From: a virus
Strand: one strand, 5' to 3'
Length of the DNA stretch: 64,000 nt
IMG/VR virus record: IMGVR_UViG_3300022932_000001
Coordinates: 1 to 64,000 of that record
Positions 3,764 through 37,495 of the stretch are shown in pieces. The first letter of the stretch is position 1. Every line of letters starts with the position of its first letter. A model generated the notes under the pieces. The model searched no databases and was not told the origin of the DNA. It worked only from the letters and a program-made list of their open reading frames with translations. The position numbers and the translations under genes were made by a program.

Positions 3764-4096
3764 ATGGAATTAGTAACAGAGAATAATATAGATCATACAC
3801 GTATAGTAATATTTAGTGAAGAAGGAAGAAATTCTCACTTTCACTCAGGCTGTAGTGAAATAGAAGGTGAATTCTATATAGCTCCTGAAAATATAAAAGA
3901 AATACATTATGGTGCTAAAGATACAGAAAATTGGTGGCCTTTAATTAAAACTAAAGATTCTGATCACATCATACGTGGGGTTTTAATTGGTAAATATGAT
4001 AAATATAAAGAATATCATCTTTGTTATAAGGATGATACATATGAAATAGAAACAATTATGGACAATCTAGATATTCTAGAAGCTAAACTTAAATAA
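3764..4096 (+). CDS. Small tag-B family protein
   Basis: A 110-residue protein and the first to carry tag B, here ETIMDNLDILEAKLK. The N-terminal part is beta-rich with several acidic residues, His and Cys (HFHSGCSEIEGEFYI) and does not begin with the GD-box common in other tag-B proteins, so the tag is attached here to a different domain. The function is unknown. It lies just before the 2OG-oxygenase-like gene. Confidence 0.75.
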   Translation: MELVTENNIDHTRIVIFSEEGRNSHFHSGCSEIEGEFYIAPENIKEIHYGAKDTENWWPLIKTKDSDHIIRGVLIGKYDKYKEYHLCYKDDTYEIETIMDNLDILEAKLK

Positions 4097-4097
4097 T

Positions 4098-4706
4098 ATG
4101 ATAAAGTCAATATCAAAGAAATTAATAGAAGTATCTTTTCCTTCATTTGAAGGTGAGATTAAAATGTTACCATTTAATTTATCAGATCTTAGTTCTATAC
4201 CTAAACAGTTTTTAGAATTAGTAATGAGTATGATTAACTTTCTTCCTATAAAAGAAGGTATAGCATATCTAACTGTTGATGGTAAAATGATTCCTGCTGG
4301 TTCTTCCCATAGAAGAGGTGGAGCTCATATAGATGGTAATTATATACCAGAAATGTGTGGATGGGGATCTAGTGGAAATGGTGGTGGTAATGGATGGAAA
4401 GTAGGAGAAAATGGTAGAGCTTTAGATAGTGATACTCATAAATTATCTTATAATAATCCAGATGGTGGTATGTTAATAGTATCAGACTATGCTGGTTGTA
4501 AAGGATGGAATGGTGCATTTAATGGAGAACCTGGAATAGGTGGTGACTGTAGACATATAGAATTAGATAAAGGATTTATCCTTGAACCTAACACTGTATA
4601 TTATGGTTCATCTCAATTTATTCATGAATCACTTCCTTTAGAGAAAGAAGTATATAGAACTATGATAAGAATAACTCTTCCATTAGATTATCCAATAATT
4701 AATTAA
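4098..4706 (+). CDS. 2OG-Fe(II) oxygenase-like protein
   Basis: A 202-residue protein with the outline of a 2-oxoglutarate/Fe(II) dioxygenase: an HxD pair (H77 and D79 in GGAHIDG), a distal H176 (FIHES) about 97 residues later and Arg187/Arg191 eleven and fifteen residues after that, all expected for iron and 2OG binding on a jelly-roll fold. The middle is very Gly-rich (residues 88-150). Known phage members hydroxylate DNA bases, proteins or small metabolites; which applies here cannot be read from the sequence. Overlap of one base with the next gene. The assignment rests on the motif triad alone. Confidence 0.5.
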   Translation: MIKSISKKLIEVSFPSFEGEIKMLPFNLSDLSSIPKQFLELVMSMINFLPIKEGIAYLTVDGKMIPAGSSHRRGGAHIDGNYIPEMCGWGSSGNGGGNGWKVGENGRALDSDTHKLSYNNPDGGMLIVSDYAGCKGWNGAFNGEPGIGGDCRHIELDKGFILEPNTVYYGSSQFIHESLPLEKEVYRTMIRITLPLDYPIIN

Positions 4707-5107
4707 TGTCAGCTGAAAAGATAGCTAAATTAAGAGAATTAGCTGACAGAGGTATTGGAGGTGAAAAACAGAATGCTAGAGATATACTTACTAAACTTGG
4801 AGTAGATTGGAAGAAGCCTAAGTTAAACTTTCAAGATACTATTAAAAAGACTTTTAAGAAGGATTATACTAGATCATATCAAATACCTATTAAGGATACA
4901 GGTGATGTATTATTCATAATGCAATTACTTAATAAAATCACTGGTAAAGCTAGTATATCAATAACTGATAATCGTATTCAATTTAATTGTACAAGTGTGC
5001 AAATGGAGGACATCTCTAAAATCTATAATAAATATAGAAAAGATTTCAACGCTAAAATGTGGTATGAATCTGATAAGTATATTAATGAATATTTAAAAAC
5101 AATATAA
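4706..5107 (+). CDS. DUF2786-like N-terminal domain protein
   Basis: A 133-residue protein. The first 35 residues (KIAKLRELADRG then ENAR-like KQNARDILTKLG) resemble the DUF2786 helical domain found at the N-terminus of many phage proteins. The remaining alpha-beta domain is not recognised. It lies between the oxygenase-like gene and a small unknown gene with one-base overlaps on both sides, so the three are likely translated together. Confidence 0.55.
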   Translation: MSAEKIAKLRELADRGIGGEKQNARDILTKLGVDWKKPKLNFQDTIKKTFKKDYTRSYQIPIKDTGDVLFIMQLLNKITGKASISITDNRIQFNCTSVQMEDISKIYNKYRKDFNAKMWYESDKYINEYLKTI

Positions 5108-5289
5108 TGGGACAAATAATAGATAAGCCTGAAGGCTATTTAGACCATACTATAAAGAATAGTAAAGGTCAAACACTACTACTTATTGAAACAGAAGATG
5201 GAGTTGTTACAGAGTCTCTAGGAGACTCTTCATACAATTATGAAATAGAAGTATATGATGCTTCTATAGAAATAAGAGAAGTAGCTTAA
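5107..5289 (+). CDS. Small hypothetical protein
   Basis: A 60-residue acidic protein of unknown function, predicted to be mostly beta strand. It is the last gene before a strong terminator and overlaps the preceding stop by one base. No tag tail, signal or membrane segment is present. Confidence 0.6.
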   Translation: MGQIIDKPEGYLDHTIKNSKGQTLLLIETEDGVVTESLGDSSYNYEIEVYDASIEIREVA

Positions 5290-5314
5290 AGATAATGTTT
5301 ATGTTTTATGGTTT

Positions 5315-5347
5315 AGCCTATACTGAGAAATTGGTATAGGCTTTTTT
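5315..5347 (+). terminator. Rho-independent terminator
   Basis: Nine-base-pair stem AGCCTATAC/GTATAGGCT with a 10-base loop, followed by six T. It closes the transcription unit ending at 5289. Confidence 0.85.
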
Positions 5348-5356
5348 ATTAAAATT

Positions 5357-5713: not shown

Positions 5714-5951
5714 TAATACAATAACAGATTTTAATAAAGATGATCTGGTATATTATGTACCAAGACATCTTCAACCTTTAGAAGGAGAAAGTCCAATGTT
5801 TAAAGATTGTCAAGAAGGTATAGTAACTAGTATCAGATATCCTTGGGTCTTTGTAAAATATAAGATAAAGAATAAAACATTTACTGGAAAAGATTATTCT
5901 AAATATCAAATAACTTCTCAAGCAACTAAACCTGAAGATTTATGGAAGTAG
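5703..5951 (+). CDS. Small SH3-like hypothetical protein
   Basis: An 82-residue protein with a beta-rich core (DDLVYYV ... VFVKYKIK). I chose the ATG at 5703, which overlaps the previous gene by 11 bases; an in-frame ATG at 5613 would overlap it by about 100 bases, far more than other pairs. No tail tag is present. The function is unknown. Confidence 0.65.
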   Translation: MGSNNTITDFNKDDLVYYVPRHLQPLEGESPMFKDCQEGIVTSIRYPWVFVKYKIKNKTFTGKDYSKYQITSQATKPEDLWK

Positions 5952-6253
5952 ATGAAATAATAGAAATATGTAAAAAGATATATACCAAAGATACTTATTA
6001 TTTTAATGCTCGTGTGGCTGTTGTAGATAATTATAATAGGTTAACATATTTAAGTTTGCCTATTTTTAAAAAATATCATCATCAAAATTATAAACATTCT
6101 GACTTAGCTATAAGTAGTGGTAATGGAATAGTATATTGGAATGGTCATTATGCAGAATTATGTGATAATAAGGGTAATATTATACCTTTTCCAGAGGGAG
6201 TATTTACTAATTCAGATTTAGAACTAGCTAGAAAGATAATATATGAAGAGTAG
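5942..6253 (+). CDS. Small tag-A family protein
   Basis: A 103-residue protein ending in LELARKIIYEE, the ARxIIY version of tag A. It is separated from the main tag-A group by 2.5 kb. The part before the tail is beta-rich with several Tyr and His residues and is not recognised. Start and stop overlap neighbours by 10 and 11 bases. Confidence 0.75.
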   Translation: MEVDEIIEICKKIYTKDTYYFNARVAVVDNYNRLTYLSLPIFKKYHHQNYKHSDLAISSGNGIVYWNGHYAELCDNKGNIIPFPEGVFTNSDLELARKIIYEE

Positions 6254-6488: not shown

Positions 6489-6499
6489 AACTTAAAATT

Positions 6500-6947: not shown

Positions 6948-6948
6948 T

Positions 6949-7125: not shown

Positions 7126-7990
7126 TCAAAAGGAATCAGGTATTCCACAACCAGCTAGAACAATTATAAAGATTCTAGTACCTCTTATTATTGCAATTAT
7201 CATATTAGCAGTACAACCATTTACTTATGAGAATGTCGATGCTGGAAATGTAGGGATTAAATTAAATCTTTATGGAACAAATAGAGGTGTAGATAAGATC
7301 ACTATTGTTTCAGGAAGAGTGTGGTATAATACCTGGACTACACGTATTGTGGAATTTCCTACATTCATACAAAATGTAGATTACAAACCATTTGCAATTA
7401 ATACTGTAGATGCTGCTAAATTTAATATTGATACAAAAATGCAATATAGAGTATTGTCAGATTCTGTTCCTAGAATATATACAACATTTAGATCTTCTCT
7501 ACAGGAGATACAAGGTGAAGGTAGATATATTCAAACAGCAGTATATGATGCATTTAAGGCTATTGTACCTAAGTATACATCTGACTCATTGATGGCTAAA
7601 AGATCTCAATTTGAAAGTGAAGTTGAAGTTGTATTAAAGGAAAAACTTGGTTCCAGAGGTATATATTTAGAACAATTGACATCTAATATAGATCCACCTA
7701 GATCAATGGCTGATGCAATTGAGGCTAAGAATGCTAGTATACAAGCTAGATTTAAAGCTGAGAATCAAGCTAAACAAGCTGTTGCAGAAGCTACAGTAAT
7801 TAAAGCTAAAGCAGAAGGTGAAGCAGCTGCTACTATTGTTAGAGCTAAAGCAGAATCTGAAGCTAATAGATTAAAACAAGCTACACTTACCCCATTATTA
7901 GTTGAGATGGAAAGAATACGCCGATGGGATGGTACATATCCAACTACAGTAGCTGGTGCTGGTACTAACTTTTTAATGCAGTTAAAATAA
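7112..7990 (+). CDS. SPFH/Band 7 (prohibitin-like) membrane protein
   Basis: A 292-residue protein with one N-terminal membrane segment (about residues 18-36), an SPFH/Band 7 domain (about 40-200; VDAGNVGIKLNLYG, TNIDPPRSMADAIEAKNASI-like region) and an Ala/Glu/Lys-rich coiled coil (about 205-255) with repeated AKAEGEA and RAKAESEA elements, the prohibitin/HflK/HflC pattern. Such proteins build rings or lattices on the membrane and often control AAA proteases such as FtsH. The AAA ATPase gene follows 54 bases later, mirroring the SPFH-AAA pairing known in cells. How it serves the phage is not known; membrane remodelling or interference with host HflKC/FtsH are both possible. Confidence 0.9.
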   Translation: MNNFDQKESGIPQPARTIIKILVPLIIAIIILAVQPFTYENVDAGNVGIKLNLYGTNRGVDKITIVSGRVWYNTWTTRIVEFPTFIQNVDYKPFAINTVDAAKFNIDTKMQYRVLSDSVPRIYTTFRSSLQEIQGEGRYIQTAVYDAFKAIVPKYTSDSLMAKRSQFESEVEVVLKEKLGSRGIYLEQLTSNIDPPRSMADAIEAKNASIQARFKAENQAKQAVAEATVIKAKAEGEAAATIVRAKAESEANRLKQATLTPLLVEMERIRRWDGTYPTTVAGAGTNFLMQLK

Positions 7991-7999
7991 TTAAACGTA

Positions 8000-8029
8000 A
8001 ACCTGGGGAGTTCTAAAACAAACCAGGTT
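8000..8029 (+). promoter_or_regulatory. Hairpin between SPFH and AAA genes
   Basis: AACCTGG at 8000-8006 pairs with CCAGGTT at 8023-8029 around a 16-base loop. No T-run follows, so it is not a classical terminator; an mRNA processing or stabilising element in the SPFH-AAA leader is possible. Confidence 0.4.
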
Positions 8030-8044
8030 AATTAAACTAAAAAC

Positions 8045-9073
8045 ATGGATCAAAAATATTTTAAATCAGGAAATAATTATTTCCTACGTGAAGTAAGTAA
8101 TGTAGAAGACCCTCTACAAGTAGCACTATATGTGTTACAATTCTCTCCTAAAGAAGGATTTTATTTAGAGAAATCAGCAGAAGATTTTCATGTAAATCAT
8201 AAAATATATGGTAAAGATGAAAAAGCATTTACAGAACGTGTAAAGAAAACATTTAATGCTACCAAAGATAATCTTGGTGTATTATTAAATGGAGTAAAAG
8301 GTACTGGCAAGTCAGTTCAATTAAAATTAATAGCTAATCATCTTGAGTTACCTATTATTATTATTCCACAAGCTTATGAAGGTGTAGCAGATTATATTAG
8401 TAAAATACCTTATTCAGTTACTCTTGTATTTGATGAGTTTGAAAAAATGTATCCTGCTAACTATAATAACAATGCTGATATACTTACAGTAATGGAAGGT
8501 GTACTTGCAAATCAATATAGAAGAGTATTCTTATTGACAACAAATAGCACTTATATTAATGATAATCTTCTAGAAAGACCAGGAAGAATTAGATATCATA
8601 GGACTTATGAAGATCTTCCTTTAGAGACAATAGAGGAGATTGTAGATGATCTACTTGAATATAAAGATCTTAGAACTGCTACAATTGATTTCTTATCGAC
8701 TCTTAAAACTATTACTATTGATATAGTAAAGAAAATTGTTGAAGAGGTTAATATCCATAATGAAGACCCTAAAATCTTTGGTAAATATTTTAATATCAAA
8801 AAAGATAGTAAAAAATATGATGTATTAATCATTAATGAGAATGGTACTGAAAAAGTATGGTTTGAAGATGTAGCTTTACCTGTTTTTGATCCTAAAAAGC
8901 CAATTAAAGATCTTAGAGTAAATGGTGAATGGGAAGCTAAAATTATTAGTATTCTTTCTCCAACTATGTTAATTGTTGATGAACAGCTAAATGAAAATAA
9001 TGAACCAGAAGTTCATATTAAGATTAAAATTGTAGATAGAGATAATCTACATAAATCATTTAGAGTTTTCTAG
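8045..9073 (+). CDS. AAA ATPase, BCS1-like
   Basis: A 342-residue ATPase: Walker A GVKGTGKS (83-90), Walker B LVFDEFE (127-133), sensor-1 TTN (165-167) and an arginine-finger motif RPGRIR (178-183), an order typical of BCS1/AAA-type ATPases. The N-terminal 80 residues and C-terminal 130 residues (beta-rich) are not recognised. It follows the SPFH gene, so the two may form a membrane-associated remodelling complex. No protease motif (HExxH) is present, so it is not an FtsH. It ends in TAG. Confidence 0.85.
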   Translation: MDQKYFKSGNNYFLREVSNVEDPLQVALYVLQFSPKEGFYLEKSAEDFHVNHKIYGKDEKAFTERVKKTFNATKDNLGVLLNGVKGTGKSVQLKLIANHLELPIIIIPQAYEGVADYISKIPYSVTLVFDEFEKMYPANYNNNADILTVMEGVLANQYRRVFLLTTNSTYINDNLLERPGRIRYHRTYEDLPLETIEEIVDDLLEYKDLRTATIDFLSTLKTITIDIVKKIVEEVNIHNEDPKIFGKYFNIKKDSKKYDVLIINENGTEKVWFEDVALPVFDPKKPIKDLRVNGEWEAKIISILSPTMLIVDEQLNENNEPEVHIKIKIVDRDNLHKSFRVF

Positions 9074-9104
9074 TCTAGTATCTTCAAAGGATACAATCGT
9101 AAGA

Positions 9105-9112
9105 TAGATTTG
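9105..9112 (+). promoter_or_regulatory. Possible -7 promoter element
   Basis: TAGATTTG matches the Bacteroidota -7 consensus TAnnTTTG in the gap before the main tag-B array. No TTG lies at the expected -33 distance, so support is partial. Confidence 0.3.
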
Positions 9113-9148: not shown

Positions 9149-9424
9149 ATGAAAACAAAGTATGAAGTAGGAGATATGGCTATTATTGTTAGGTATGATA
9201 AATATAAAGGAGATAAGTCACAGAATAATATAGGTGAATTGGTTTGTATAACTACAGCTGGAAGCTTGACAAGAGCTCCTCAAGTTCTTATAGCTGATGA
9301 TAGAATATTTACACAAGATTCTGTATTTACTTGTGATGTAAATGAACTTTTTCCTATAGAAAAATACATAGAAGTAATAGATATGAATTTAGATAAGTTA
9401 ATAGATAAGTATGGCAAAAGATAA
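9149..9424 (+). CDS. Small SH3-like protein with tag B
   Basis: A 91-residue protein starting MKTKYEVGDMAIIV, a GD-box barrel opening, and ending VIDMNLDKLIDKYGKR (tag B). A TTG at 9110 is in frame, but it would place the leader hairpin inside the coding region and push the GD-box 13 residues from the start, unlike all relatives; I therefore chose ATG 9149. It opens a run of seven tag-B or related genes. Confidence 0.75.
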   Translation: MKTKYEVGDMAIIVRYDKYKGDKSQNNIGELVCITTAGSLTRAPQVLIADDRIFTQDSVFTCDVNELFPIEKYIEVIDMNLDKLIDKYGKR

Positions 9425-9752
9425 TACAATATTTCAACAAGGTAAATACTATATTATTACAGAATTCAAAAAAGGATATGGTAAATCTTTTAGTAATATA
9501 TTTAAAGATCACATATATATATCTAGAAAAAGTGACAATGGATATTTATTTCCAAGACTTGATAGTCTTGGTAGAATAAATTCTGGTATTCACACTAACT
9601 ATATAGAAAGTTATAGAGAAGCAACTAAAGAAGAAATAATTAGATATAGAAAGCTAAAGAAACCTTTTGATATTAATGATAAATCATATATAATAGATGA
9701 TATTAATATGTATTTAGATATATTAGAATTAAAATTTAAAGAAGATGAATAA
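9411..9752 (+). CDS. Small tag-B family protein
   Basis: A 113-residue protein, paralog of the next gene: both have an N-terminal GQCIVI/GKYYII barrel strand, an internal R-x-A-T-x-E-E/A motif (YREATKEEI) followed by YRKLKKPFDINDKSY, and a tag B tail (DINMYLDILELKFKEDE). Start overlaps the preceding tag codons by 14 bases. The function is unknown. Confidence 0.8.
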   Translation: MAKDNTIFQQGKYYIITEFKKGYGKSFSNIFKDHIYISRKSDNGYLFPRLDSLGRINSGIHTNYIESYREATKEEIIRYRKLKKPFDINDKSYIIDDINMYLDILELKFKEDE

Positions 9753-10080
9753 TAGATTTAGTCAAGGACAATGTATAGTAATAACTAAATTAAATACTAG
9801 TTATATATCTTCTAAAGATCAATATTTGAAAGTTAATCATGTATATAAACAAAGAAAAAATTATAACTGTTTATTACCTATGTTAGATAGTAATGGTAAA
9901 GAAAATACACGTGTACATTTTATAAACCCAGCTAATAATTATGATAATGAATGTAGAGCAGCTACCCCAACAGAAGCTGCTAGATATAAGTTACTAAAGA
10001 AACCATTTGATGTTTATGATAATGCTTATTTAATAGAAAAGATGTTTGATGATTTAGATAAATTAGAGAAGAAATTGTAA
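9745..10080 (+). CDS. Small tag-B family protein
   Basis: A 111-residue paralog of the preceding gene, sharing NGK/NGR loops, RAATPTEAARY, LLKKPFDVYDNAY and the tag B tail MFDDLDKLEKKL. The overlap with the previous gene is 8 bases, and the stop overlaps the next ATG by one base. The pair shows that whole cassettes duplicate, and not only the tail. Confidence 0.8.
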   Translation: MNNRFSQGQCIVITKLNTSYISSKDQYLKVNHVYKQRKNYNCLLPMLDSNGKENTRVHFINPANNYDNECRAATPTEAARYKLLKKPFDVYDNAYLIEKMFDDLDKLEKKL

Positions 10081-10427
10081 TGTTTAAAAGAGGAGAAAGA
10101 GTAGTATTAAAGAAATGTGATATAGAAGGTTATAGATTTAACTTTGAATATAACTTATCTAATGATCCTAACACTATAATAGATGAATCTGATGATATTT
10201 ATAATTCACAATATGGTGAAATAGCTAAAGATTGGATAAAAGATAATTCTACTATAGGAGTAAATTGGTATAATTCTAAAGAAGAAATTATAAATACTAA
10301 AGGTCCACTTAATATGTATGTTATCGAGTCTAATGGTAATTTAGTAGAAATTGAACATATACAACTGTATTCTATAGATAAAATTATTAGTGATTTAGAT
10401 ACATTAGAAAATGGACTTAAAGATTAA
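10080..10427 (+). CDS. Small SH3-like protein with tag B
   Basis: A 115-residue protein beginning FKRGERVVLK, with a central VNWYNSKEE strand resembling the VTWYDYNHN of genes at 14782 and 15038, and ending DKIISDLDTLENGLKD (tag B). It appears to be a small beta barrel with an inserted acidic loop (residues 25-50) and the helical tag. The function is unknown. Confidence 0.8.
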   Translation: MFKRGERVVLKKCDIEGYRFNFEYNLSNDPNTIIDESDDIYNSQYGEIAKDWIKDNSTIGVNWYNSKEEIINTKGPLNMYVIESNGNLVEIEHIQLYSIDKIISDLDTLENGLKD

Positions 10428-10740
10428 AAAAGGTGATAAACTAAAATTAGTCAAGACTTTAAATTCTAGATATTTTTATCCAGATGGAAGATTAAAATTT
10501 ACTGAATTGATAGATTATCAATATTTTGAAGTTGATAAACATAAACCTTATCCAGATAAAATTAATTGTTCATTTTGTGAAGGTGAATTTATATTAAAAG
10601 ATGGTTCTAGATCAAAAACTTATAATGTTAATTATAGAGAAAATAAGGATTTTGGTATTGAAGTAGAATTGTATGATTTAATAAAAATTGAAGATATAAT
10701 AAGTAATTTGGATAAACTGGAAAGTAAATATAATGTTTAA
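10411..10740 (+). CDS. Small SH3-like protein with tag B
   Basis: A 109-residue protein beginning KIKKGDKLKLVKT and ending EDIISNLDKLESKYNV (tag B). It has an early DSRYF-like NSRYFYPDG stretch shared with the next gene (DSRYFNEDL), so the two are probably paralogs. It overlaps the preceding tag codons by 17 bases. Confidence 0.8.
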   Translation: MDLKIKKGDKLKLVKTLNSRYFYPDGRLKFTELIDYQYFEVDKHKPYPDKINCSFCEGEFILKDGSRSKTYNVNYRENKDFGIEVELYDLIKIEDIISNLDKLESKYNV

Positions 10741-11050
10741 GGCTGGAGATAAAGTTAGGCTTATAGTTGATAAAGATAGTAGATATTTTAACGAAGATTT
10801 AAGTCATGTACATGAAAATTTAATAGGTTATAAGTATGGGATATTAAAGGATAATTTAACTTATATATATGAGGACCCTGGTACTGAAAAATTTTATGTT
10901 AATTGGTTAGAAATAGGTGGAAACTTTACTAGTGATTGGGGTATATATGATGGATCAAATAAGAAACACAAGTGTGAAATAGAGTTTTATCAATATGATA
11001 TAAATAGAATAGTTAAGAATTTAGAGATATTAGAAAGTAAATATGAGTGA
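10733..11050 (+). CDS. Small SH3-like protein with tag B
   Basis: A 105-residue protein beginning FKAGDKVRLIVDKDSRYF and ending NRIVKNLEILESKYE (tag B). It has a YKYGILKDN strand similar to SAYGII or SRYGIV in the genes at 14534 and 14782, which suggests a common barrel fold. Its ATG lies within the last codons of the previous tag. Confidence 0.8.
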   Translation: MFKAGDKVRLIVDKDSRYFNEDLSHVHENLIGYKYGILKDNLTYIYEDPGTEKFYVNWLEIGGNFTSDWGIYDGSNKKHKCEIEFYQYDINRIVKNLEILESKYE

Positions 11051-11522
11051 ATTTAAAATAGGAGATATAGTAGTCTCACTTATAGATCAAGAATCATCTA
11101 CTAATCAAGAACCTGTTTCCATAAGAGAAGGTTATGTAGGTGAAAATATATCACCATTAGATAATCAAGTAGTATTCTTTGATCAAACAGTCCCTGGAAA
11201 AGGATGTTATAAATCAGAGAACTTTAGATTAGCTACTGATGATGAGAAAGAACAGTTTTTGAAAGGAAGAAAAATAGTAGAACCTGAATCACCATTTGAG
11301 GAAGGAGACGTAATTATTACTACAGGTAAGGTTTCTTCTGTAGAAGGTATTATTCCAGAATCTTTTGAAGCTGGTAAAATATTAGTAATAACTGATATTA
11401 TAAAAACTAAAGATATTAGTAAAGCTATTATGTGGTTTACTAATAGTACACAAGCTTTCAAGTTGATAGATAAATTCAGATTAGCTACACAAGAAGAAAT
11501 TGATAATGAATCAAAACTCTAA
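11043..11522 (+). CDS. Two-barrel SH3-like protein
   Basis: A 159-residue protein made of two similar halves, each starting with a GD-box (FKIGDIVVSL, FEEGDVIITT) and each ending in an FRLAT-x-(D/E)E motif (ENFRLATDDEKEQF, DKFRLATQEEID). It lacks the tag B tail. The FRLAT motif relates it to the RxATxEE motif of the genes at 9411 and 9745, and to its own paralog downstream. Confidence 0.75.
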   Translation: MSEFKIGDIVVSLIDQESSTNQEPVSIREGYVGENISPLDNQVVFFDQTVPGKGCYKSENFRLATDDEKEQFLKGRKIVEPESPFEEGDVIITTGKVSSVEGIIPESFEAGKILVITDIIKTKDISKAIMWFTNSTQAFKLIDKFRLATQEEIDNESKL

Positions 11523-11982
11523 ATTTGTAAATAATACTATCATAGTAGCATTGCTAGATATGAATAGTGTTGATGGTAATGAAAGTATAAAAGAAGGAAC
11601 TGTAGATAGAGTATCAATATCTGGTAGCAGTGGTAAGTTTAGCTGTGATTGGGTTATTGGATTTATAGATAGAAGAGCAACAGAAAGCTACTATAAAGCT
11701 GATAAAGAGATCTATTTTAGGTTAGCTACAGAAAGTGAAATTGAAGAGTTTAATAAAAAAGGAAGATATACAATAGATCAACCTAAATTTAAGATAGGTG
11801 ATAAAATAGTAGCATTAGATGATATTACTACTACTGAAGATGAGTACTCAGTTAAGAAGGGAGAAGAAAGAACTATAGAAGATATAATTGTTAATAAAAA
11901 AGATATTAATAAATCTATATTTTGGTTTCCTGGACATAAAGGAGTATTTACAATGGAAGATAATTTTAAATTAAAAGATTAG
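11506..11982 (+). CDS. Two-barrel SH3-like protein, paralog of preceding gene
   Basis: A 158-residue paralog of the gene at 11043 with the same two-half structure: IYFRLATESEIEEF in the middle, then FKIGDKIVALDD opening the second half, and INKSIFWFPG matching ISKAIMWFTN. ATG 11506 was preferred to ATG 11500; both overlap the previous stop. No tag B is present. The function is unknown. Confidence 0.75.
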   Translation: MNQNSKFVNNTIIVALLDMNSVDGNESIKEGTVDRVSISGSSGKFSCDWVIGFIDRRATESYYKADKEIYFRLATESEIEEFNKKGRYTIDQPKFKIGDKIVALDDITTTEDEYSVKKGEERTIEDIIVNKKDINKSIFWFPGHKGVFTMEDNFKLKD

Positions 11983-13073: not shown

Positions 13074-14237
13074 ATGGCTGAAACACAAGACGAAATTATT
13101 GAACAATTAGAAGCTAAGGTTCAAGAATATGAGAATTTATTAGAAGAGACTCTTTCTGATAAAAAAGGATTTGGTAAGATACTAGCAGGTCCTTTTGATC
13201 ATGATGGTAAAAAGTATTATAGAGTTTCTATAGGAAGTGATATATCAATGGTATATGCTGCTGAAGTTAGTATGTTTGATGGATCTCCAATTGATCCAAC
13301 TTTACCTGAAGAAACAGAAGTTATTGTTGTAGGTCAAACTATAGCATGTGTTGTTCCTGAAGAACTTAAAGTTATCATCGAACCACCAGTATTTGATCTT
13401 ATTTCATGGTCTGATATAGGTGGATTTAAATCACAACTTCAAATTATCAGAGATGCTATTGAACTTCCTATGGTAAATGCTAAGTTAGCAGAAGAATTGG
13501 GTGTTCAACCTATCTGTGGTATTCTTTTATATGGAGCTCCAGGTTGTGGTAAAACATATATAGCAAAAGCTATTGCATCTACAGTACTTGGTGCAACTAG
13601 AATTGATCCACAAGCTTTTCAGTATATGAAAGGTGGTGAGATGTTATCTATGTATGTTGGTAAAACTGAACAAGATATTAAGAATTCATTTGCACAATGT
13701 AGAGATTACACTAAACGTACTGGTAAAAAGGCTATTATGTTTATTGATGAAGCTGAAGCATTACTTCCTACAAGAGGTAGCAGAAGATCATCTGATGTAG
13801 AAACTACTATTGTACCAACATTCTTAAGTGAGATGTCTGGTTTTGAAGGTAATAATCCAATTGTTATCTTAGCAACAAATAAAAAAGATGCTATTGATGA
13901 AGCCATTCTTAGAGAAGGTAGGATTGATATTAAAATTGAGATCAAACGTCCTACAGAGCCTGATGCATTAGAGATATTTGAGATTCATCTTAAGAAACTT
14001 AAAACTCATGATGCTGTTGCAGATTTGGCAGAATTTGCATCTTCATCTTTATTTGGATCACCTGCTGCTAAGAAAGTTAGTGGAGCTATGATAGAAGCTA
14101 TCTGTAAAGATGCTATACGTAAAACCATGACTAGAGTAATAGCTACTCCAAAAACTAAGGAAAAAGGAATAACCTTAGATGATATGTCAAAAGCAATAAC
14201 AGCAATAAATACATCATATGTCACTACAAAAGCGTAA
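13074..14237 (+). CDS. PAN/Cdc48-like AAA+ unfoldase
   Basis: A 387-residue AAA+ ATPase with the proteasomal-ATPase layout: an N-terminal coiled coil (about 5-30), a small beta domain (about 35-95) like the OB domain of PAN/ARC, then the AAA core starting with SWSDIGGF. Walker A GAPGCGKT (154-161), pore-loop-1 aromatic in SMYVGKTE (near 194), Walker B IMFIDEAEA (221-229), sensor-1 LATN (266-269) and RxGRID (280-285). The DIGG, pore loop and helical lid match Cdc48/PAN/Rpt proteins much better than ClpX or FtsH. There is no C-terminal HbYX motif (it ends TSYVTTKA), so it may act as a stand-alone protein unfoldase. Bacteroidota have no 20S proteasome, so partner and substrate are open questions. 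Confidence 0.85.
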   Translation: MAETQDEIIEQLEAKVQEYENLLEETLSDKKGFGKILAGPFDHDGKKYYRVSIGSDISMVYAAEVSMFDGSPIDPTLPEETEVIVVGQTIACVVPEELKVIIEPPVFDLISWSDIGGFKSQLQIIRDAIELPMVNAKLAEELGVQPICGILLYGAPGCGKTYIAKAIASTVLGATRIDPQAFQYMKGGEMLSMYVGKTEQDIKNSFAQCRDYTKRTGKKAIMFIDEAEALLPTRGSRRSSDVETTIVPTFLSEMSGFEGNNPIVILATNKKDAIDEAILREGRIDIKIEIKRPTEPDALEIFEIHLKKLKTHDAVADLAEFASSSLFGSPAAKKVSGAMIEAICKDAIRKTMTRVIATPKTKEKGITLDDMSKAITAINTSYVTTKA

Positions 14238-14533: not shown

Positions 14534-14794
14534 ATGATTCCAGGAGAAAAAAGACAATTAACAGATTTAGGAAGAGAACAATTTAAATTAATAAAATGGG
14601 ATAGTATAGCTAATTCCAGATATGGAATTGTTGAAATAAATTCCTCTGATATAACTTGGTATAATGATCTTAATCAAAATGTAGGAAAAAGTGGACGCTG
14701 TAGAGATGGTTGGCATATTGAATGGGAAGAACCTTATACTATTGAGAAAATTGAAGAGAATTTGGATAAACTAATGAAGAAATGTTTAAGTTAA
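14534..14794 (+). CDS. Small SH3-like protein with tag B
   Basis: An 86-residue protein of a distinct subfamily with the next two genes and those at 17215 and 20927: PGEKRQLT opening, a SRYGIVE strand, ITWYNDLNQNVG (W-Y-D/N hairpin), a short W-containing strand and the tail KIEENLDKLMKKCLS. Its last codons AAA TGT TTA A.. are read in another frame as the ATG TTT AA. start of the next gene. Confidence 0.8.
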   Translation: MIPGEKRQLTDLGREQFKLIKWDSIANSRYGIVEINSSDITWYNDLNQNVGKSGRCRDGWHIEWEEPYTIEKIEENLDKLMKKCLS

Positions 14795-15045
14795 ATGACA
14801 GAGTAGTTCTTTCTAAAGAAGGTATAGAAGTATTTGGTAATCCTAATGAAATTAATATTAAAAATTCAGCTTATGGTATAATAACATATTATAGGGAATC
14901 TAATATAGATGTAACTTGGTATGATTATAATCATAATAAAATAATAGTTACTGGATCTTATAAAGATTGGATTCAACATGATATTATATATGATATCAAA
15001 GAGATTGAGCAAAATTTAGATAAATTGATAGAAAAATATGTATAA
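14782..15045 (+). CDS. Small SH3-like protein with tag B
   Basis: An 87-residue paralog of its neighbours: FKLNDRVVLSKEGIE, SAYGII, VTWYDYNHNKI, KDWIQHD and tail EIEQNLDKLIEKYV. The start overlaps the previous tag by 13 bases. It is probably a five-stranded barrel with a C-terminal helix; no catalytic residues are evident. Confidence 0.8.
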   Translation: MFKLNDRVVLSKEGIEVFGNPNEINIKNSAYGIITYYRESNIDVTWYDYNHNKIIVTGSYKDWIQHDIIYDIKEIEQNLDKLIEKYV

Positions 15046-15328
15046 GAAAGGAGATAGAGTTGAATTAACATATGAAGGTATAGAAGATTTAAATTCTATA
15101 AGTCGTACTGATATATTAACATCTCATTATGGTATTTGTCAAGATGATGTTATTTTACTCAATCCAAATTTTGGACCTCATGTACATTGGTATGATCAAT
15201 ATCATAATTATATATCTAGTTCAGGAACAGATATTAGATGGATTAGGCACTTTGAAGAAGTTGAACCATATAATATCAGTAAAATAATGAATAATTTAGA
15301 TAAACTTATTGAAAAATGTTTAAAGTAG
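15038..15328 (+). CDS. Small SH3-like protein with tag B
   Basis: A 96-residue paralog: YKKGDRVELTYEGIE, SHYGIC, VHWYDQYHNYI, DIRWIRH and tail KIMNNLDKLIEKCLK. Three consecutive members of this subfamily (14534, 14782, 15038) keep the WYD hairpin and tail while diverging elsewhere, the pattern expected from repeated duplication with selection for new binding surfaces. Confidence 0.8.
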   Translation: MYKKGDRVELTYEGIEDLNSISRTDILTSHYGICQDDVILLNPNFGPHVHWYDQYHNYISSSGTDIRWIRHFEEVEPYNISKIMNNLDKLIEKCLK

Positions 15329-15630
15329 GAGATAAGATTAAATTTAATGATTATACTAAATCTTTAATAAATGCTAGTAATCATGAATATTATAGAAGTG
15401 CGATATGGAAATCAGTAGAATATATGATTATTGATATAGTACGTACTCAAAGTTATGGTGCTAGATGTTTTTATATCAATGGTCTACCCATCAAAGATTT
15501 ACATGCAGGACAACCTAAACATGAAGATATTGAACTATATATCAAATATAATATAGAAGAAATAATAAACGATTTAAATAACTTAGAACAAAAATTAAAT
15601 GGAAAATTGGTTAGTAATATTAGCAGCTAG
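15316..15630 (+). CDS. Small SH3-like protein with tag B
   Basis: A 104-residue protein of a second subfamily (with 16553 and 16840): FKVGDKIKFNDYTKSLINA, W-K-x-V-E-Y-M-I-I-D, a central NGLPIKD-like turn and tail EEIINDLNNLEQKLNG, extended by about nine residues. It overlaps the preceding tag by 13 bases and the next membrane gene by 32. Confidence 0.75.
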   Translation: MFKVGDKIKFNDYTKSLINASNHEYYRSAIWKSVEYMIIDIVRTQSYGARCFYINGLPIKDLHAGQPKHEDIELYIKYNIEEIINDLNNLEQKLNGKLVSNISS

Positions 15631-16552: not shown

Positions 16553-16852
16553 ATGAAAATAACTGTAGGGAGTAAGATAAAATTCAAGGATAAAGTAAAA
16601 TCGGGATTAAAGGATAGCACTTTCTATGAGGGTGAGGAATGGAATTTAGTTGATTATATGATAGTACTATCAATTGATGAAGAACCAGATGATAAAAGAT
16701 ATACCGTTGATCCCTATAATATAGATAATATTTTATTAGAAAAGATTAGTGGTCATTGTCCTAGACAAGAAGATTGTATACCTTATTACGATTATAATAT
16801 AAATGAAATTATGAGTAATTTAGATAAACTTAAAAACAAATGGAAAAGATAG
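16553..16852 (+). CDS. Small SH3-like protein with tag B
   Basis: A 99-residue protein of the same subfamily as the gene at 15316: VGSKIKFKDKVKSGLKDS, WNLVDYMIVLSI, a YNIDN loop and tail NEIMSNLDKLKNKWKR. It is the first gene behind the structured RNA element. Its tail codons contain the ATG of the next gene. Confidence 0.8.
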   Translation: MKITVGSKIKFKDKVKSGLKDSTFYEGEEWNLVDYMIVLSIDEEPDDKRYTVDPYNIDNILLEKISGHCPRQEDCIPYYDYNINEIMSNLDKLKNKWKR

Positions 16853-17205
16853 TAGCAACACCAAATAATGTTAAAGTAGGTACTAAAGTTATTATTGATA
16901 AAACTAATACAAGATTATCTAAATGGGCAACTACAATAGTGAACAGTGATCAATATCGTTTAGTTGAATATTTTAAAGTAATAAGATTTAATAAAGTTAA
17001 TGATAATGTAGTATATGTAAATGGTTATAATCTTAATGATAAAAAGATAGATATTGCGGAAGATGTACTATGTATAGGTTATGATGGATTTTATGATGTT
17101 ACACTTTATGAAAATACTCCAGATTATGATCTTGATAGTATTTTGAATAATCTTGATAAACTTCAATATAAATTACCTAAAAAGAAATGGTGGAAAATAT
17201 TTTAA
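16840..17205 (+). CDS. Small SH3-like protein with tag B
   Basis: A 121-residue paralog of the preceding gene: VKVGTKVIIDKTNTRLSKW, YRLVEYFKVIRF, VNGYNLNDKKID and tail DSILNNLDKLQYKLPKKKWWKIF. The tag here is followed by a basic-aromatic extension (KKKWWKIF), suggesting that the tag need not be at the extreme C-terminus. Confidence 0.8.
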   Translation: MEKIVATPNNVKVGTKVIIDKTNTRLSKWATTIVNSDQYRLVEYFKVIRFNKVNDNVVYVNGYNLNDKKIDIAEDVLCIGYDGFYDVTLYENTPDYDLDSILNNLDKLQYKLPKKKWWKIF

Positions 17206-17214: not shown

Positions 17215-17523
17215 ATGACTAAAGGAGATATAGTAAAAAATGACAACTTTAAAAAAGGACACAAAGTTATAAAAGGTCCTGATTGGGAATATGGAGATCA
17301 GGATATACATTCTATATATGGAGTAATAGTAACTCCTCCAGGGACATATAATGAAGATTGTGAAGTTATCTGGATAGATCAACATAATCATCCATTAAAG
17401 AAATATGTATATAGAACAGGAAGAGCTGGTAAACATGATTTAGTATTTTATCAAGATACAATTGATTATTCATTAGAAGATATGTTTGCAGATCTAGATG
17501 CTTTAGCAGATAAATTTAAATAG
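17215..17523 (+). CDS. Small SH3-like protein with tag B
   Basis: A 102-residue protein of the WYD-hairpin subfamily: FKKGHKVIKGPDWEYG, SIYGVIV, VIWIDQHNHPLK and tail EDMFADLDALADKFK. The linker before the tag is acidic. The start lies nine bases after the preceding stop, so this pair is not overlapped. Confidence 0.8.
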   Translation: MTKGDIVKNDNFKKGHKVIKGPDWEYGDQDIHSIYGVIVTPPGTYNEDCEVIWIDQHNHPLKKYVYRTGRAGKHDLVFYQDTIDYSLEDMFADLDALADKFK

Positions 17524-17524: not shown

Positions 17525-17809
17525 ATGCATGGTATAAATATTGGAGATAAAATGTATATCTCAGATGAAGATAGAGATAATACAGTAGACTGGAGTAAAT
17601 ATGGATATTGTATATTGAAAACTGACTATAGAGAACCAAAAGATTTTGCTTTAGTGGATATATACTCGAAATTTAATGTATTACTAGCTGAGCAACACAT
17701 GGTTAGATGTAGGGACTTATCGCTAGTTGATAAAAGTATAGAAACTACAATGCATAATATTTTAGTAAATTTAAATAAATTAGAAAAGAAAATCATAAAA
17801 CAAAAATAA
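17525..17809 (+). CDS. Small SH3-like protein with tag B
   Basis: A 94-residue protein beginning INIGDKMYISD and ending HNILVNLNKLEKKIIKQK (tag B). The middle (KYGYCILKTDY, FALVDIYS) is divergent from the other members. It is followed at 1-base distance by the 225-residue gene. Confidence 0.75.
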   Translation: MHGINIGDKMYISDEDRDNTVDWSKYGYCILKTDYREPKDFALVDIYSKFNVLLAEQHMVRCRDLSLVDKSIETTMHNILVNLNKLEKKIIKQK

Positions 17810-19263: not shown

Positions 19264-19521
19264 ATGTTTAACAAAGGAGATGTAATTGTAGTACGTGAAG
19301 ATCGTGAATGTTATGATGAATATAGTGATACTGATTATATAGTAGATCGTATGGAAAATAGTAATCATAGTGTTTATTGTTATCCTACATCTGGTGAACG
19401 TTTAGGACAATTACATGGTTTTGACCTAAAAGATGTTGTTCTAAAAAATCAATATTTCATTGAAGATATAATTAAAGATTTAGAAATACTAGAGAAAAGA
19501 TGTTTAATAAAGGAGATATAG
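19264..19521 (+). CDS. Small SH3-like protein with tag B
   Basis: An 85-residue protein, clear paralog of the next gene: FNKGDVIVVRE, a YSDTDYIVDR strand, a PTSGE-R-LGQLHGF motif and tail EDIIKDLEILEKRCLIKEI. It is the first gene after a terminator. The tail codons contain the ATGTTTAAT start of the next gene in another frame. Confidence 0.8.
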   Translation: MFNKGDVIVVREDRECYDEYSDTDYIVDRMENSNHSVYCYPTSGERLGQLHGFDLKDVVLKNQYFIEDIIKDLEILEKRCLIKEI

Positions 19522-19745
19522 TTACGATTATACCTGGTACTAGATATTTTAAAGATTATTCATATACAAATTATAGAGTAGAAGAATTTAGTAGCAATGA
19601 TCATATTCAAACAAAGCCTACATCAGGTGGCAAAACAATGCAATCACATTCATTCACTATACTTGATATAATGTTAGTACCAGATCCTATAGATTCTATA
19701 TTAGAAAATTTAGAAATATTAGAAAAGAAATATGAAAAAGCATGA
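19500..19745 (+). CDS. Small SH3-like protein with tag B
   Basis: An 81-residue paralog of the preceding gene: FNKGDIVTIIPGTRYF, YTNYRVEEF, KPTSGGKTMQSHSF and tail DSILENLEILEKKYEKA. The duplication is comparatively recent, since barrel, PTSG loop and tail all align without gaps over most of the length. Confidence 0.8.
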   Translation: MFNKGDIVTIIPGTRYFKDYSYTNYRVEEFSSNDHIQTKPTSGGKTMQSHSFTILDIMLVPDPIDSILENLEILEKKYEKA

Positions 19746-20016
19746 ATATTTAATGGCTGAAGACCATTATGAAGTAAGAAGTGTAAAGAAGGGTAGAAAA
19801 GAAAAAGTTTGTGAATATTGTGGAAGAGCTATACCTATAGGAGCTCCAGCAAATACCCACACATTCTATCCTGAATTTCAAGCTTATGATACACATTTAA
19901 AATGTAGTGATGATTTTGAGGCTAGTCTAAATACTCAAGAAGACATAAAACAAAAAGAGTATGAAGAATCCACTGAATATCAATTACAACAAGTTAGAGA
20001 ATTAATTAAAGAATAA
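19732..20016 (+). CDS. Zinc-finger protein
   Basis: A 94-residue protein with a likely zinc site: CEYCGRAIPIG (Cys pair, residues 24-27), then THTFYP, and THLKC (His/Cys about residues 60-63), resembling small phage zinc-ribbon proteins. The C-terminus STEYQLQQVRELIKE resembles tag A weakly (LQ-x-x-R-E-L/I-I), so it may be a distant tagged protein. It overlaps the preceding tag-B gene by 14 bases. Confidence 0.65.
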   Translation: MKKHEYLMAEDHYEVRSVKKGRKEKVCEYCGRAIPIGAPANTHTFYPEFQAYDTHLKCSDDFEASLNTQEDIKQKEYEESTEYQLQQVRELIKE

Positions 20017-20664: not shown

Positions 20665-20940
20665 ATGAGAGATAAAGTAAGATTAATATATACTGATGCC
20701 AATAGTAATAAATATTACGAAATGGAAGAAAGTGTTACTGGTAGTATAATGGTTTCTTATGGAAGAATTGGGACAAAACCTCAAATTAATTATTATACCA
20801 TGAATATGTGGGATAAGAAATATAATGAAAAGATTAATAAAGGATATAAAGATGTATCTACTAGTATAGTTAAATTTAGTCTTGAAGATGTATTTGCTAA
20901 TCTAGACAAACTAGAACTTAAGTTAAGTGAAAAAGGGTGA
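20665..20940 (+). CDS. WGR-domain protein with tag B
   Basis: A 91-residue protein in which residues 1-70 look like a WGR domain: a first strand RLIYTDANSNKYYEM, the core VSYGRIGTKPQI and then KKYNEKINKGYKDV. WGR domains occur in PARPs and bacterial MolR-type proteins and bind DNA ends or nucleic acid. It then carries EDVFANLDKLELKLSEKG (tag B), the strongest case of the tag attached to an unrelated recognised domain. The Trp of the motif is Tyr here. Confidence 0.75.
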   Translation: MRDKVRLIYTDANSNKYYEMEESVTGSIMVSYGRIGTKPQINYYTMNMWDKKYNEKINKGYKDVSTSIVKFSLEDVFANLDKLELKLSEKG

Positions 20941-21217
20941 TAAAGTTCAATTAAATGAATTAGGATATAAAGGATATTCAAAAGGTGCTGGATCTGATTG
21001 GAATTTAGAAAAAGAATTTGGATATGCTATTATAAATGTAATTGATTCAGGTAAACAAAATTATATTGATGTTAATATTTATAACAAAAGAGGAAAGACA
21101 ATAGGTACTATAGGTGGATGTGCAGATTGGTTTGAACCTTATGAAGAACCTTTTAATATAAAAAATGCTATAAATGATCTAAATAAATTAGAAATTAAAC
21201 TAAAAAAAGATGAGTAA
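20927..21217 (+). CDS. Small SH3-like protein with tag B
   Basis: A 96-residue protein: KKGDKVQLNELGYKG, EFGYAII, VNIYNKRGKTIG, ADWFEPYEEPFNIK and tail NAINDLNKLEIKLKKDE. It belongs with the WYD-hairpin subfamily of 14534-15328 (there EWEEPYTIEKIEEN). It overlaps the WGR tag by 14 bases and the next gene by 8. Confidence 0.8.
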   Translation: MKKGDKVQLNELGYKGYSKGAGSDWNLEKEFGYAIINVIDSGKQNYIDVNIYNKRGKTIGTIGGCADWFEPYEEPFNIKNAINDLNKLEIKLKKDE

Positions 21218-35134: not shown

Positions 35135-35138
35135 AATA

Positions 35139-35146
35139 CAAATATA
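35139..35146 (-). promoter_or_regulatory. Possible -7 promoter element for the minus-strand gene
   Basis: On the minus strand TATATTTG fits TAnnTTTG; an upstream TTTG lies only 15 bases away (19-20 is usual). The box ends 4 bases before the ATG, so transcription from it would give a near-leaderless message. Confidence 0.4.
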
Positions 35147-35394
35147 TGAAAACATTATTAACAAAGGAATTACTTATAGAAAAAGGATTCTTATATAAAA
35201 GTGGTAAAGGCCCTAGTGGAGCAGATCAGTGGCAAGGAATGGACTTCTGGAAATTACCTTATGGAAGTAATAAAGAATTAGTTTTTAGAGGTCCAGCTAA
35301 TCATTTATATTCTCAAGATGAGTTTAATGCTCAATTTGATAACTATGAAGAATTAGCTGATTTTATATTTAATAAGATTAAAAAATTAATATGA
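35146..35394 (+). CDS. Small hypothetical protein
   Basis: An 82-residue protein (GKGPSGADQWQGMDFWKLPY near the middle, partly quoted) ending in NYEELADFIFNKIKKLI, a helical tail loosely like those of the other small proteins. It starts 12 bases from the divergent minus-strand gene. The function is unknown. Confidence 0.6.
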   Translation: MKTLLTKELLIEKGFLYKSGKGPSGADQWQGMDFWKLPYGSNKELVFRGPANHLYSQDEFNAQFDNYEELADFIFNKIKKLI

Positions 35395-35582
35395 AAAATT
35401 TAGATAGTGAGTGGAAATACACTACAAAAGTAAATATAGCTCAAGCAGAGTTATTAGGTAGAATAGGATACTATAGACAAGGTGCATCTGAGTTTCAGGA
35501 AAGACTTCTTAAAGTATTAGAAGATAGACAACCAGGTGATGAACCTAATATTATAACATTAGTTAAGGAATTAAAACCATGA
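35391..35582 (+). CDS. Small protein with tag C, paralog 1
   Basis: A 63-residue protein, paralog of the next gene: both begin LD-x-(E/K)W, have a FQ(E/S)-x-LL-K-x-L helix in the middle and end in I-x-(I/L)-V-K-E-L-K-P, directly overlapping the next ATG by 4 bases. The function is unknown. Confidence 0.65.
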   Translation: MKNLDSEWKYTTKVNIAQAELLGRIGYYRQGASEFQERLLKVLEDRQPGDEPNIITLVKELKP

Positions 35583-35764
35583 GCCAATTAGATGAAAAAT
35601 GGTTTAAAACTGCTGAAGAATTTGGTGAACACCCATTATCATATTTTGAGGGATGTGAAGATTTTCAGTCAACATTACTTAAAAAATTAAAAAAAGTTAA
35701 AGAATTAAAAGCTATTGATTCAATAGATAATATTATTAAAATAGTAAAAGAATTAAAACCATGA
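35579..35764 (+). CDS. Small protein with tag C, paralog 2
   Basis: A 61-residue paralog of the preceding gene (QLDEKWFKTAEEFG, DFQSTLLKKL, NIIKIVKELKP). The final codons CCATGA supply the next start, exactly as in paralog 1, so the junction as well as the gene has been duplicated. Confidence 0.65.
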   Translation: MSQLDEKWFKTAEEFGEHPLSYFEGCEDFQSTLLKKLKKVKELKAIDSIDNIIKIVKELKP

Positions 35765-36027
35765 ATTATAACTGTGTAATATGCAATTTTGAAATTGTAA
35801 ATTTAGAACCATCATTAACTAAAGACAGACCTGAATCAGGTATGTATGATGGAGGAGTTGTAGATAAAATATCTGCTGGATATGGAAGTAGATTAGATGG
35901 TAATATGCATATTATAGCAATATGTGATAACTGTTTAAATGAGAAAACTTTAGCAGGTATTACTCCTTTTGTAGGAGACTATATGATGCCTGATGTAAAA
36001 GAATATACTCCATTAAGAAATGATTGA
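35761..36027 (+). CDS. Small zinc-ribbon-like protein
   Basis: An 88-residue protein with CVIC (residues 5-8) and CDNC (about 59-62), a pair of CxxC motifs expected to bind one zinc ion, with Gly-rich GGVVDKISAGYGSRLDG between them. Similar phage proteins are of unknown function. It starts in the tag C codons of the preceding gene. Confidence 0.65.
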   Translation: MNYNCVICNFEIVNLEPSLTKDRPESGMYDGGVVDKISAGYGSRLDGNMHIIAICDNCLNEKTLAGITPFVGDYMMPDVKEYTPLRND

Positions 36028-36448
36028 AAGAGAATATACTCCAGATAATATAGAATCATTACCAGATAATGGAATATTTGTATTTGGTAGTAATACAGAA
36101 GGTAGACATGGTAAGGGGGCTGCCTTAATAGCCAAACAAAAATTTGGAGCTATATATGGACAAGCTGAAGGTTTACAAGGTAAATCATATGCTATAATTA
36201 CTAAAGATTTAACTGTAAAGGATAATAACTCTTTGAAATCAGTTTCTTTAGATAAAATAGCTGGTGGTATAGTTAAAATGTTAAATTTTGCTATAGAAAA
36301 TCCAGATAAAATATTTTATGTAACAAAATTAGGTAGTTCATTAGCTGGTTATACTGCAAAACAAATAAGACTTGCATTTATGATACATTCATTTATATTT
36401 CCATCAAATGTGATTTTACCAAGAGAATACGAATTTAGAAATGATTAA
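36020..36448 (+). CDS. Macro-domain-like phage protein (A1S_2505 type)
   Basis: A 142-residue protein with the signature FVFGSNTEGRHGKGAAL (about 20-36), an IITKDL strand and VTKLGSSLAGYTAKQIRLAF (partly quoted: LGSSLAGY), the pattern of the A1S_2505-like phage family, related to macro domains. Macro-type folds bind or hydrolyse ADP-ribose derivatives. It lies just before the UDG gene. The binding loop GSNTEGRHGKGAA is Gly-rich as expected for a phosphate loop; its ligand is unknown. Confidence 0.75.
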   Translation: MIEREYTPDNIESLPDNGIFVFGSNTEGRHGKGAALIAKQKFGAIYGQAEGLQGKSYAIITKDLTVKDNNSLKSVSLDKIAGGIVKMLNFAIENPDKIFYVTKLGSSLAGYTAKQIRLAFMIHSFIFPSNVILPREYEFRND

Positions 36449-37145
36449 CATAGAAGAGATTAAAGAAAAGCTTATAGATAAATTAAAATCATCAGGATGG
36501 GCGTCAGTACTTAAGGGATTTATATACTCATCAGACTTTGTTAAGATTATAGAAGATCTAGAAAAAGAAGTTAATGATGGTAAGAGGTTTACTCCTGTAC
36601 TAAAAGATGTATTTACTGCATTTGAAGAATCTAAATGGGAAGATCTTAGAGTAGTAATGATTGGACAAGATAGTTATCCTACTTTAGGAGTAGCAGATGG
36701 ACTAGCATTTAGTTGTAGTAAGACTAACAAAGAGCAACCTAGTTTAAGATATATGAGAGATGCAATACAAAGAACTGTATATGATCCAATACCTGAACCT
36801 AGACAAACTGATTTAAGGTATTTAGCTAATCAGGGTGTATTATTAATAAATACAGCTCTTACTACTCAAATAGATAAACCAATGACTCATCAGAAGATAT
36901 GGTCAGCATTTATTGCATATACTTTAGATACTATTAGTAATAATAAGAAACATGTTGTTTTTGTTTTCTTAGGAAAAGAAGCTGCTAGTCTTGAAGGATT
37001 GGTTAGTGATTCACATACTAAATATATTATATCACATCCAATGTCTGCTGGTTATACTAATCAATTAGAATGGGATTGTAAAGATGTATTTAATAAAGTA
37101 AATGAAAGTTTAGAACAAAATAAAGTAACTCCAATAAAATGGTAG
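36441..37145 (+). CDS. ung: Uracil-DNA glycosylase-like protein
   Basis: A 234-residue protein of UNG type. Motif 1 is GQDSYP (about 75-80, usual GQDPYH): the catalytic Asp and the Tyr that excludes thymine are kept, His is Pro. LAFSCS carries the stacking Phe, LLINTAL the uracil-binding Asn, and HPMSAG (about 199) replaces HPSPLS with the catalytic His kept. The C-terminus TPIKW matches the typical TPIDW. It should remove uracil from DNA, though the changed motif 1 leaves activity uncertain. UDGs occur in crAss-like phage replication modules. Confidence 0.8.
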   Translation: MINIEEIKEKLIDKLKSSGWASVLKGFIYSSDFVKIIEDLEKEVNDGKRFTPVLKDVFTAFEESKWEDLRVVMIGQDSYPTLGVADGLAFSCSKTNKEQPSLRYMRDAIQRTVYDPIPEPRQTDLRYLANQGVLLINTALTTQIDKPMTHQKIWSAFIAYTLDTISNNKKHVVFVFLGKEAASLEGLVSDSHTKYIISHPMSAGYTNQLEWDCKDVFNKVNESLEQNKVTPIKW

Positions 37146-37495
37146 AAGATAAGTTAATTACAAAAATAGTTGATGCAAGTGATTATAAAATAGGTGCAAA
37201 ATTTAATTTTATTATAAAAGATAATCCTAGAATATCAACCATGAATTCTAGTCATTATGCAATTATTAAAGAAACACAGGTAACATACTATGATAGATTA
37301 AGTAATCCAGCATTTTATATAGATATATATACTAAGAAAGATAAACTTGTAAATTCAAATGAATTTGGATTAATATATAGAACTGGATCAACATATAGTG
37401 GTCAATATAGTCCAGAATTATGTCATCTCGAACCAGATTATAATATTGATGATATATTAAATAATTTACAAATATTAGAACAGAACATAAAATGA
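37139..37495 (+). CDS. Small tag-B family protein
   Basis: A 118-residue protein with an SH3-like start (YKIGAKFNFIIKDN), SHYAIIKE and VTYYDRLSNP segments like the WYD subfamily, and tail DDILNNLQILEQNIK. It is the only tag-B gene outside the left arm, 16 kb from the nearest relative, and it sits between UDG and the second MoxR pair. Confidence 0.75.
   Translation: MVEDKLITKIVDASDYKIGAKFNFIIKDNPRISTMNSSHYAIIKETQVTYYDRLSNPAFYIDIYTKKDKLVNSNEFGLIYRTGSTYSGQYSPELCHLEPDYNIDDILNNLQILEQNIK

Follow-up and report, generated by a model that had tools for sequence, protein, structure and literature searches.

Bases 1-64000 of the 134,893-base virus record IMGVR_UViG_3300022932_000001 (the window, the whole stretch of DNA analysed here) encode a series of small proteins that differ in their N-terminal parts, the heads, and share a C-terminal helix, which we call tag B. 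The genome, ~134.9 kb, is taken to be circular because a contig from a near-identical strain reads across both record ends. The initial annotation had assigned this tail to 20 open reading frames (ORFs) of the window, and all 20 are present and carry it. The motif first given for it, I-x-(N/D)-L-(D/E)-(K/I)-L-E-x-K, describes a real tail, whose pattern we refined to a 17-residue helix, [YF]-x-[IL]-x-x-[IVM]-x-x-[ND]-L-[DEN]-x-L-x-x-K, or, numbered from the N/D, [YF](-8), [IL](-6), [IVM](-3), [ND](0), L(+1), [DEN](+2), L(+4), [E](+5) and K(+7).

The 20 genes all lie on the plus strand and, once the tail is trimmed off, their heads sort by sequence into several families. SH3-like heads of group 1 are found in 10080..10427, in three of the four tag B genes between 14218 and 15599 (14534..14794, the first of the four, 14782..15045 and 15038..15328) and in 20927..21217, which has a GTG start; the SH3-like head of 10733..11050 is linked to group 1 by profile, and the head of 10411..10740 is related to that of 10733. 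Group 2 consists of 15316..15630, whose ~10 residues past the tail overlap gene 15599, 16553..16852, 16840..17205, with 9 residues past the tail, and 37139..37495, directly 3' of a uracil-DNA glycosylase gene; the head of 17525..17809 is linked weakly to this group. Two further head families are pairs, 9411..9752 with 9745..10080 and 19264..19521 with 19500..19745, and 20665..20940 has a WGR-domain head. The remaining members are 3764..4096 (tail core at residues 92-109), whose head has no known relative, 9149..9424 (tail core at residues 71-88 counted from the ATG at 9149, with an upstream TTG at 9110) and 17215..17523, whose head is unassigned. Beyond the 20, a further clear member lies outside the window at 124278..124613, bringing the family to 21, and two more genes, 125774 and 133476, encode divergent versions of the tag.

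The tail is concentrated at C-termini. The short motif [ND]L[DNE].L.. occurs 19 times within the last 40 residues of proteins and twice at all other positions of the proteome (Fisher p = 2e-12). Among small proteins, 200 pairs matched over their last 20 residues (score >=35), compared to 5 for interior windows and 30 for N-termini, and the same C-terminus test gave 0-5 pairs in related phages. A hidden Markov model (HMM) of the 18-residue tail core, searched against ~2,400 proteins of this phage and 19 others, found all 21 members and no other protein below E = 0.2; with each member left out of the model in turn, 20 of the 21 were recovered at E <= 0.15, the failure being 9411, which has the weakest tail (Y at position 0). 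The tail is not always at the extreme C-terminus, where it had been placed, as 15316 and 16840 extend ~9-10 residues past it. Because tag B tolerates these extensions, recognition of the very C-terminus is disfavoured, and we rejected an end-read tag such as a C-terminal degron of the ssrA type.

The initial annotation had also asked for a conserved helix face, the lack of which would have counted against a shared tag, and such a face was found. Positions -6, -3, +1 and +4 are hydrophobic in every member, and +8 is mostly so, which places hydrophobic residues at the a and d positions of a two-heptad coiled coil in all 21; this 3-4-3 stripe is flanked by N/D at position 0 (20 of 21 members) and K at +7 (18 of 21).

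A second C-terminal tag in the same genome

The picture drawn by the initial annotation was incomplete in that the genome holds a second family, tag A, of ~12 residues ([DE]-L-x-x-[AI]-R-x-[IW]-[IL]-Y-[ED]), borne by 24 other small proteins, of which 23 are in the ORF set and one is encoded across the record join. Its arrays lie at 118.5-119.4 kb (minus strand), 127.5-129.7 kb, 132.9-133.5 kb and from 134.1 kb across the join to 1.5 kb. In the window, four plus-strand genes (257, 567, 892 and 1187; 257..1483) continue the array from the record end, and single tag A genes follow on the same strand at 2193..2456, 3120..3368 and 5942..6253, the last with a head of the YPIGT..GKWA type. Together the two tags are found on ~45 of some 222 ORFs, about one-fifth.

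Two other endings resemble these tags. The products of 19732 and 20016 (19732-20663) end in the tag A-like LQQVRELIKE and VDEVRKIIGE, and the product of 20016 also weakly resembles the end of AAA_21/AbiEii-type ATPases. The neighbours 35391 and 35579 (35391-35764) share a C-terminal N-I-I-x-[LI]-V-K-E-L-K-P, which could be a minor third tag or simply reflect a duplication.

Unlike heads carry the same tail

That a shared tail stands behind differing heads was borne out, since the same tail follows a WGR domain, SH3-like heads and an alpha/beta head, and is thus not the last helix of one homologous fold. The heads do fall into several families, but sequence links join ~12 of the 21 tag B heads as SH3-like relatives, and part of the difference, though not all, is therefore divergence within one family.

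One of these heads is that of 20665, in which residues 5-65 match the WGR domain (Pfam PF05406) with E 1.6e-7 and 31.7 bits, above the curated cut-off of 22. The tail core of this protein (residues 70-87) lies beyond the domain and was found, with E 3.1e-5, by a tail profile built without 20665. WGR and SH3-like domains also occur without such tails. When whole head families were omitted, the resulting tail profiles recovered most members of the omitted family, including 124278 at E 1e-7; the exceptions, 9411, 14782 and 20927, scored no better than the top untagged protein. Proteins whose heads are related have a tail identity of 0.44 and those whose heads are unrelated one of 0.41, values somewhat inflated by anchoring the alignment on the motif, a flaw from which the leave-family-out test is free; head identity is 0.31 for related and 0.22 for unrelated heads, against a background of 0.20. 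The model of 14782 (predicted local distance difference test score, pLDDT, 87) has strands at residues 7-10, 31-38, 41-47, 53-58 and 64-66, followed by a helix at 72-86, and its structural matches in the PDB are SH3/KOW-like but weak, none with E below 0.01.

Heads and tags are also combined in different ways. The alpha/beta-type head of 124278, a tag B protein, matches tag A heads (hhalign 81%, E 1.3e-5, 79 columns); it was outscored only by two comparisons of untagged neighbours and by one that set the same heads against each other in overlapping groups. The commonest tag A head, the YPIGT..GKWA module, recurs in unrelated Cellulophaga phages of the Pervagoviridae, in Calle_3 gp61 (HMM E 9.5e-20, where shuffled sequences did no better than E 36) and phi38:1 gp25 (1.8e-8). 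In these phages, however, a single chain of 316-382 residues holds repeats of the module with no tag A after them: the 382-residue Calle_3 protein (7467-8615) has three modules in tandem and lacks tag A.

At one locus, the tail is retained while the head changes

Most tagged genes overlap the start codon of the next gene, and in a tag A array the end of the tag (TATGAAGAC..) provides the next ATG. Tags are nevertheless retained in 2193, 3120, 3764, 17215, 17525, 124278, 129427 and 132867, which have no overlapping downstream gene. At identical tail residues, codons agree at 0.635 for tag B and 0.621 for tag A, compared to 0.579 and 0.597 expected from codon usage; because codon identity is this close to expectation, selection acts on the protein and not on the DNA.

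The contig of the near-identical strain is 99% identical over most of the shared sequence. At 124278, the two strains agree in the head at 50% of amino acids and 67% of nucleotides and in the tail at 89% and 93%, respectively, and most of the DNA flanking the gene is 85-98% identical. By sequence, the head block has been replaced or has diverged fast while the tail stayed.

Occurrence and genomic setting

The major capsid protein is related to those of the crAss-like phages cr10_1 (8e-12) and cr130_1 (2e-8) and also to those of Cellulophaga phi17:2 and Leptolyngbya phage Lbo-JY46, the closest among annotated phages; on this capsid relationship to classified members, the phage belongs to Crassvirales. 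A capsid profile search of IMG/VR returned 148 relatives, and among the 80 listed, capsid identity is 74-82%, except for the one near-identical strain. This phage shares its structural and replication genes with the relatives, but not most of the region from ~117.7 kb through the origin to ~28 kb, which houses all tagged genes but 37139. Most tagged genes share their strand and side with the replication genes, opposite the structural genes.

The tags were not found in 18 related contigs (several of them fragments, four longer than 110 kb), in Lbo-JY46 (>110 kb) or in phi17:2, phi14:2 and crAss001, each sampled in part and giving 0-5 C-terminus pairs; their presence here sets this phage apart from the crAss-like phages sampled. 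In IMG/VR, the exact tag A pattern returned only the near-identical strain, and the exact tag B pattern returned that strain together with chance matches. An alignment-based scan with a tag A head family likewise found that strain only. The tag A pattern had 10 matches in bacterial genomes, nine in Pelagibacteraceae and the tenth in an unrelated Bacteroidales stretch; the two of these nine that we examined (L183 and L184) are one gene, NusA, with the C-terminus ..SARKIIYED, an exact tag A core, and we take the ten matches to be chance. In tblastn searches of 50,697 phage records with full tagged proteins, two proteins gave no match and another found the Cellulophaga heads. Searches of viral contigs through 13074 or 21210 yielded no relatives, and literature searches, of partial coverage, found no description of such tags.

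Two gene contexts bear on how tagged genes arose. Homologues of 13074, an AAA+ ATPase gene, and of 15599 are separated by one small ORF in the huge phage LR756500, and here four tag B genes also stand between them, the last of which, 15316, runs on into 15599. At the 37139 locus, relatives have other genes 3' of the uracil-DNA glycosylase gene. Because of these two contexts, tag genes look like units added among older genes.

Several further features of the genome were noted. The untagged neighbours 11043 and 11500 (11043-11982) have related halves with a common F-R-L-A-T-x-x-E (hhalign 82-86%). Eight tRNA genes are clustered on the minus strand (L003 12984-14525), and a separate tRNA-Cys gene lies at L003 18359-18442, both adjoining the tag-bearing region. 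The phage encodes four AAA+ ATPases (8045-9073, 13074-14237, 25073-27395 and 37860-40305), two of the AAA and two of the bpMoxR type, and each bpMoxR-type gene is followed by a larger gene, one of which, 26151, has a homologue in the relative G003. As in other Crassvirales, very large proteins are encoded on the structural strand: two of 1515 and 4497 residues (window 57664-62211; record 62228-75721) are, by size and place, probably crAss-like cargo or RNA polymerase proteins.

Docking and its alternatives

A docking tag, as the initial annotation proposed, remains the best reading of a shared tail on unlike heads. The other parts of that proposal drew no support from any result: a virion partner, and the counter-defence role and host target, which are still guesswork. 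We give an even chance to the view that two docking helices deliver interchangeable heads to two common partners. Each of the two C-terminal tags specific to this lineage, B (~17 residues, two heptads) and A (~12 residues), would be fused to many small heads (SH3-like barrels, the WGR domain, alpha/beta heads and the YPIGT..GKWA module) that bind different things or do different jobs. Each tag would be kept constant because its conserved face, a hydrophobic stripe with, in tag B, the N/D and K flank, matches one common partner; this tag B stripe, which has N/D (0) and K (+7) along one side, looks like a partner-binding helix face. Any head that gained a tag would reach the partner of that tag, and new genes may arise by duplication, rapid divergence or replacement of the head, and tail exchange, with the tail retained. 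We infer that one partner exists per tag and that the complex would act early in infection.

Several points weigh against this docking reading. No docking partner was found, and the helix may either stand free or pack against its own head. Part of the pattern is accounted for by common descent, given the link among ~12 of the 21 tag B heads as SH3-like relatives. Head turnover was seen at one locus only, 124278, where other genes also differ, in a sample of one lineage and two strains, and the AlphaFold model of 124278 was poor (pLDDT 55) and was not used. The AAA+ ATPase 13074, of the VCP/proteasomal type and placed amid tag B genes, was considered as the partner and is no more than a possible one: its closest phage relative (41%), in LR756500, lies near the 15599 homologue with no tag gene between, and its pairing with the tags is therefore not obligatory.

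Self-association, which we regard as unlikely, would have tag B pair with tag B as a two-heptad coiled coil, and tag A likewise, giving mixed dimers or oligomers with no third partner. In each of the 21 members the hydrophobic positions, mostly including +8, are spaced 3-4-3-4 as in a coiled coil, and in Calle_3 the module that forms tag A heads is multivalent already, with tandem copies in one chain; but N/D at 0, D/E/N at +2 and K at +7 exceed the requirements of a plain zipper, and two heptads alone make a weak one.

Quite unlikely, too, is that the tail packs against its own head as a normal terminal helix and lacks a partner, the tagged genes being an expanded family with heads that are no longer recognisably related. 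The sequence links among tag B heads are what this would predict, the 14782 helix is predicted with high confidence, and in the closest pair, 9411 and 9745, the tail is no better conserved than the head (0.39 vs 0.41). Yet the same tail stands behind a WGR domain, a head type joined to tag B in one gene is found with tag A in others, heads typical of tag A proteins also occur without that tag, and tail identity does not drop when heads are unrelated. That this face and flank persist on unlike heads makes packing against the protein's own head the weaker reading.

The capsid targeting sequence of T-even phages is N-terminal and is cleaved off in the head. The internal proteins that carry it are diverse small phage proteins, some of them counter-restriction factors, that have only this sequence in common (PMC3012670), and Crassvirales virions are thought to carry ejected cargo proteins (PMC10136315). 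By analogy, the tags could be packaging signals that load the heads into the virion for injection and immediate action in the next cell, a special case of docking with a scaffold, portal or cargo protein as partner. We consider this very improbable: the tagged genes lie mostly with replication genes whereas most crAss001 cargo proteins are late (PMC10136315), and the tags are missing in relatives at 74-82% capsid identity. Unlike the T4-type targeting sequence, the tags here are C-terminal helices, of two kinds, and matching pairs number 30 at N-termini against 200 at C-termini.

That conservation resides in the nucleic acid, DNA or RNA, as a recombination site or as a signal coupling translation to the next gene, is scarcely credible, for although the overlaps with the next start codon would suit it, the codon identities speak strongly against it and the eight genes without an overlapping next gene keep their tags.

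Implications

The docking reading may be extended, as a tentative possibility, to two plug-and-socket systems, in which each helix would have its own hub, ~45 quickly renewed effector heads would be sorted between them and the gain of a tag would suffice for recruitment. A likeness in logic is seen in the poxviral ankyrin/F-box (PRANC) proteins, a multi-gene viral family in which the C-terminal part is constant and docks while the N-terminal part varies and binds targets (PMC9414399). This is an analogy only. These proteins have no sequence relation to the tags: their F-box, of 40-50 residues, docks to SCF ubiquitin ligases, which bacteria lack, and no ankyrin or F-box Pfam match was found in the ten tag B proteins scanned.

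Within one genome, unlike heads share a tag and one head type is joined to different tags, and about one-fifth of the genes, nearly all uncharacterised, seem to follow a common design. Should each tag dock to a single partner, one pull-down per tag would give a first function for ~45 uncharacterised proteins, and the tags would supply short peptides with which proteins could be directed to a phage or host hub. Such a system would parallel, in a bacterial virus, the adaptor families that combine a constant docking end with a variable target end.

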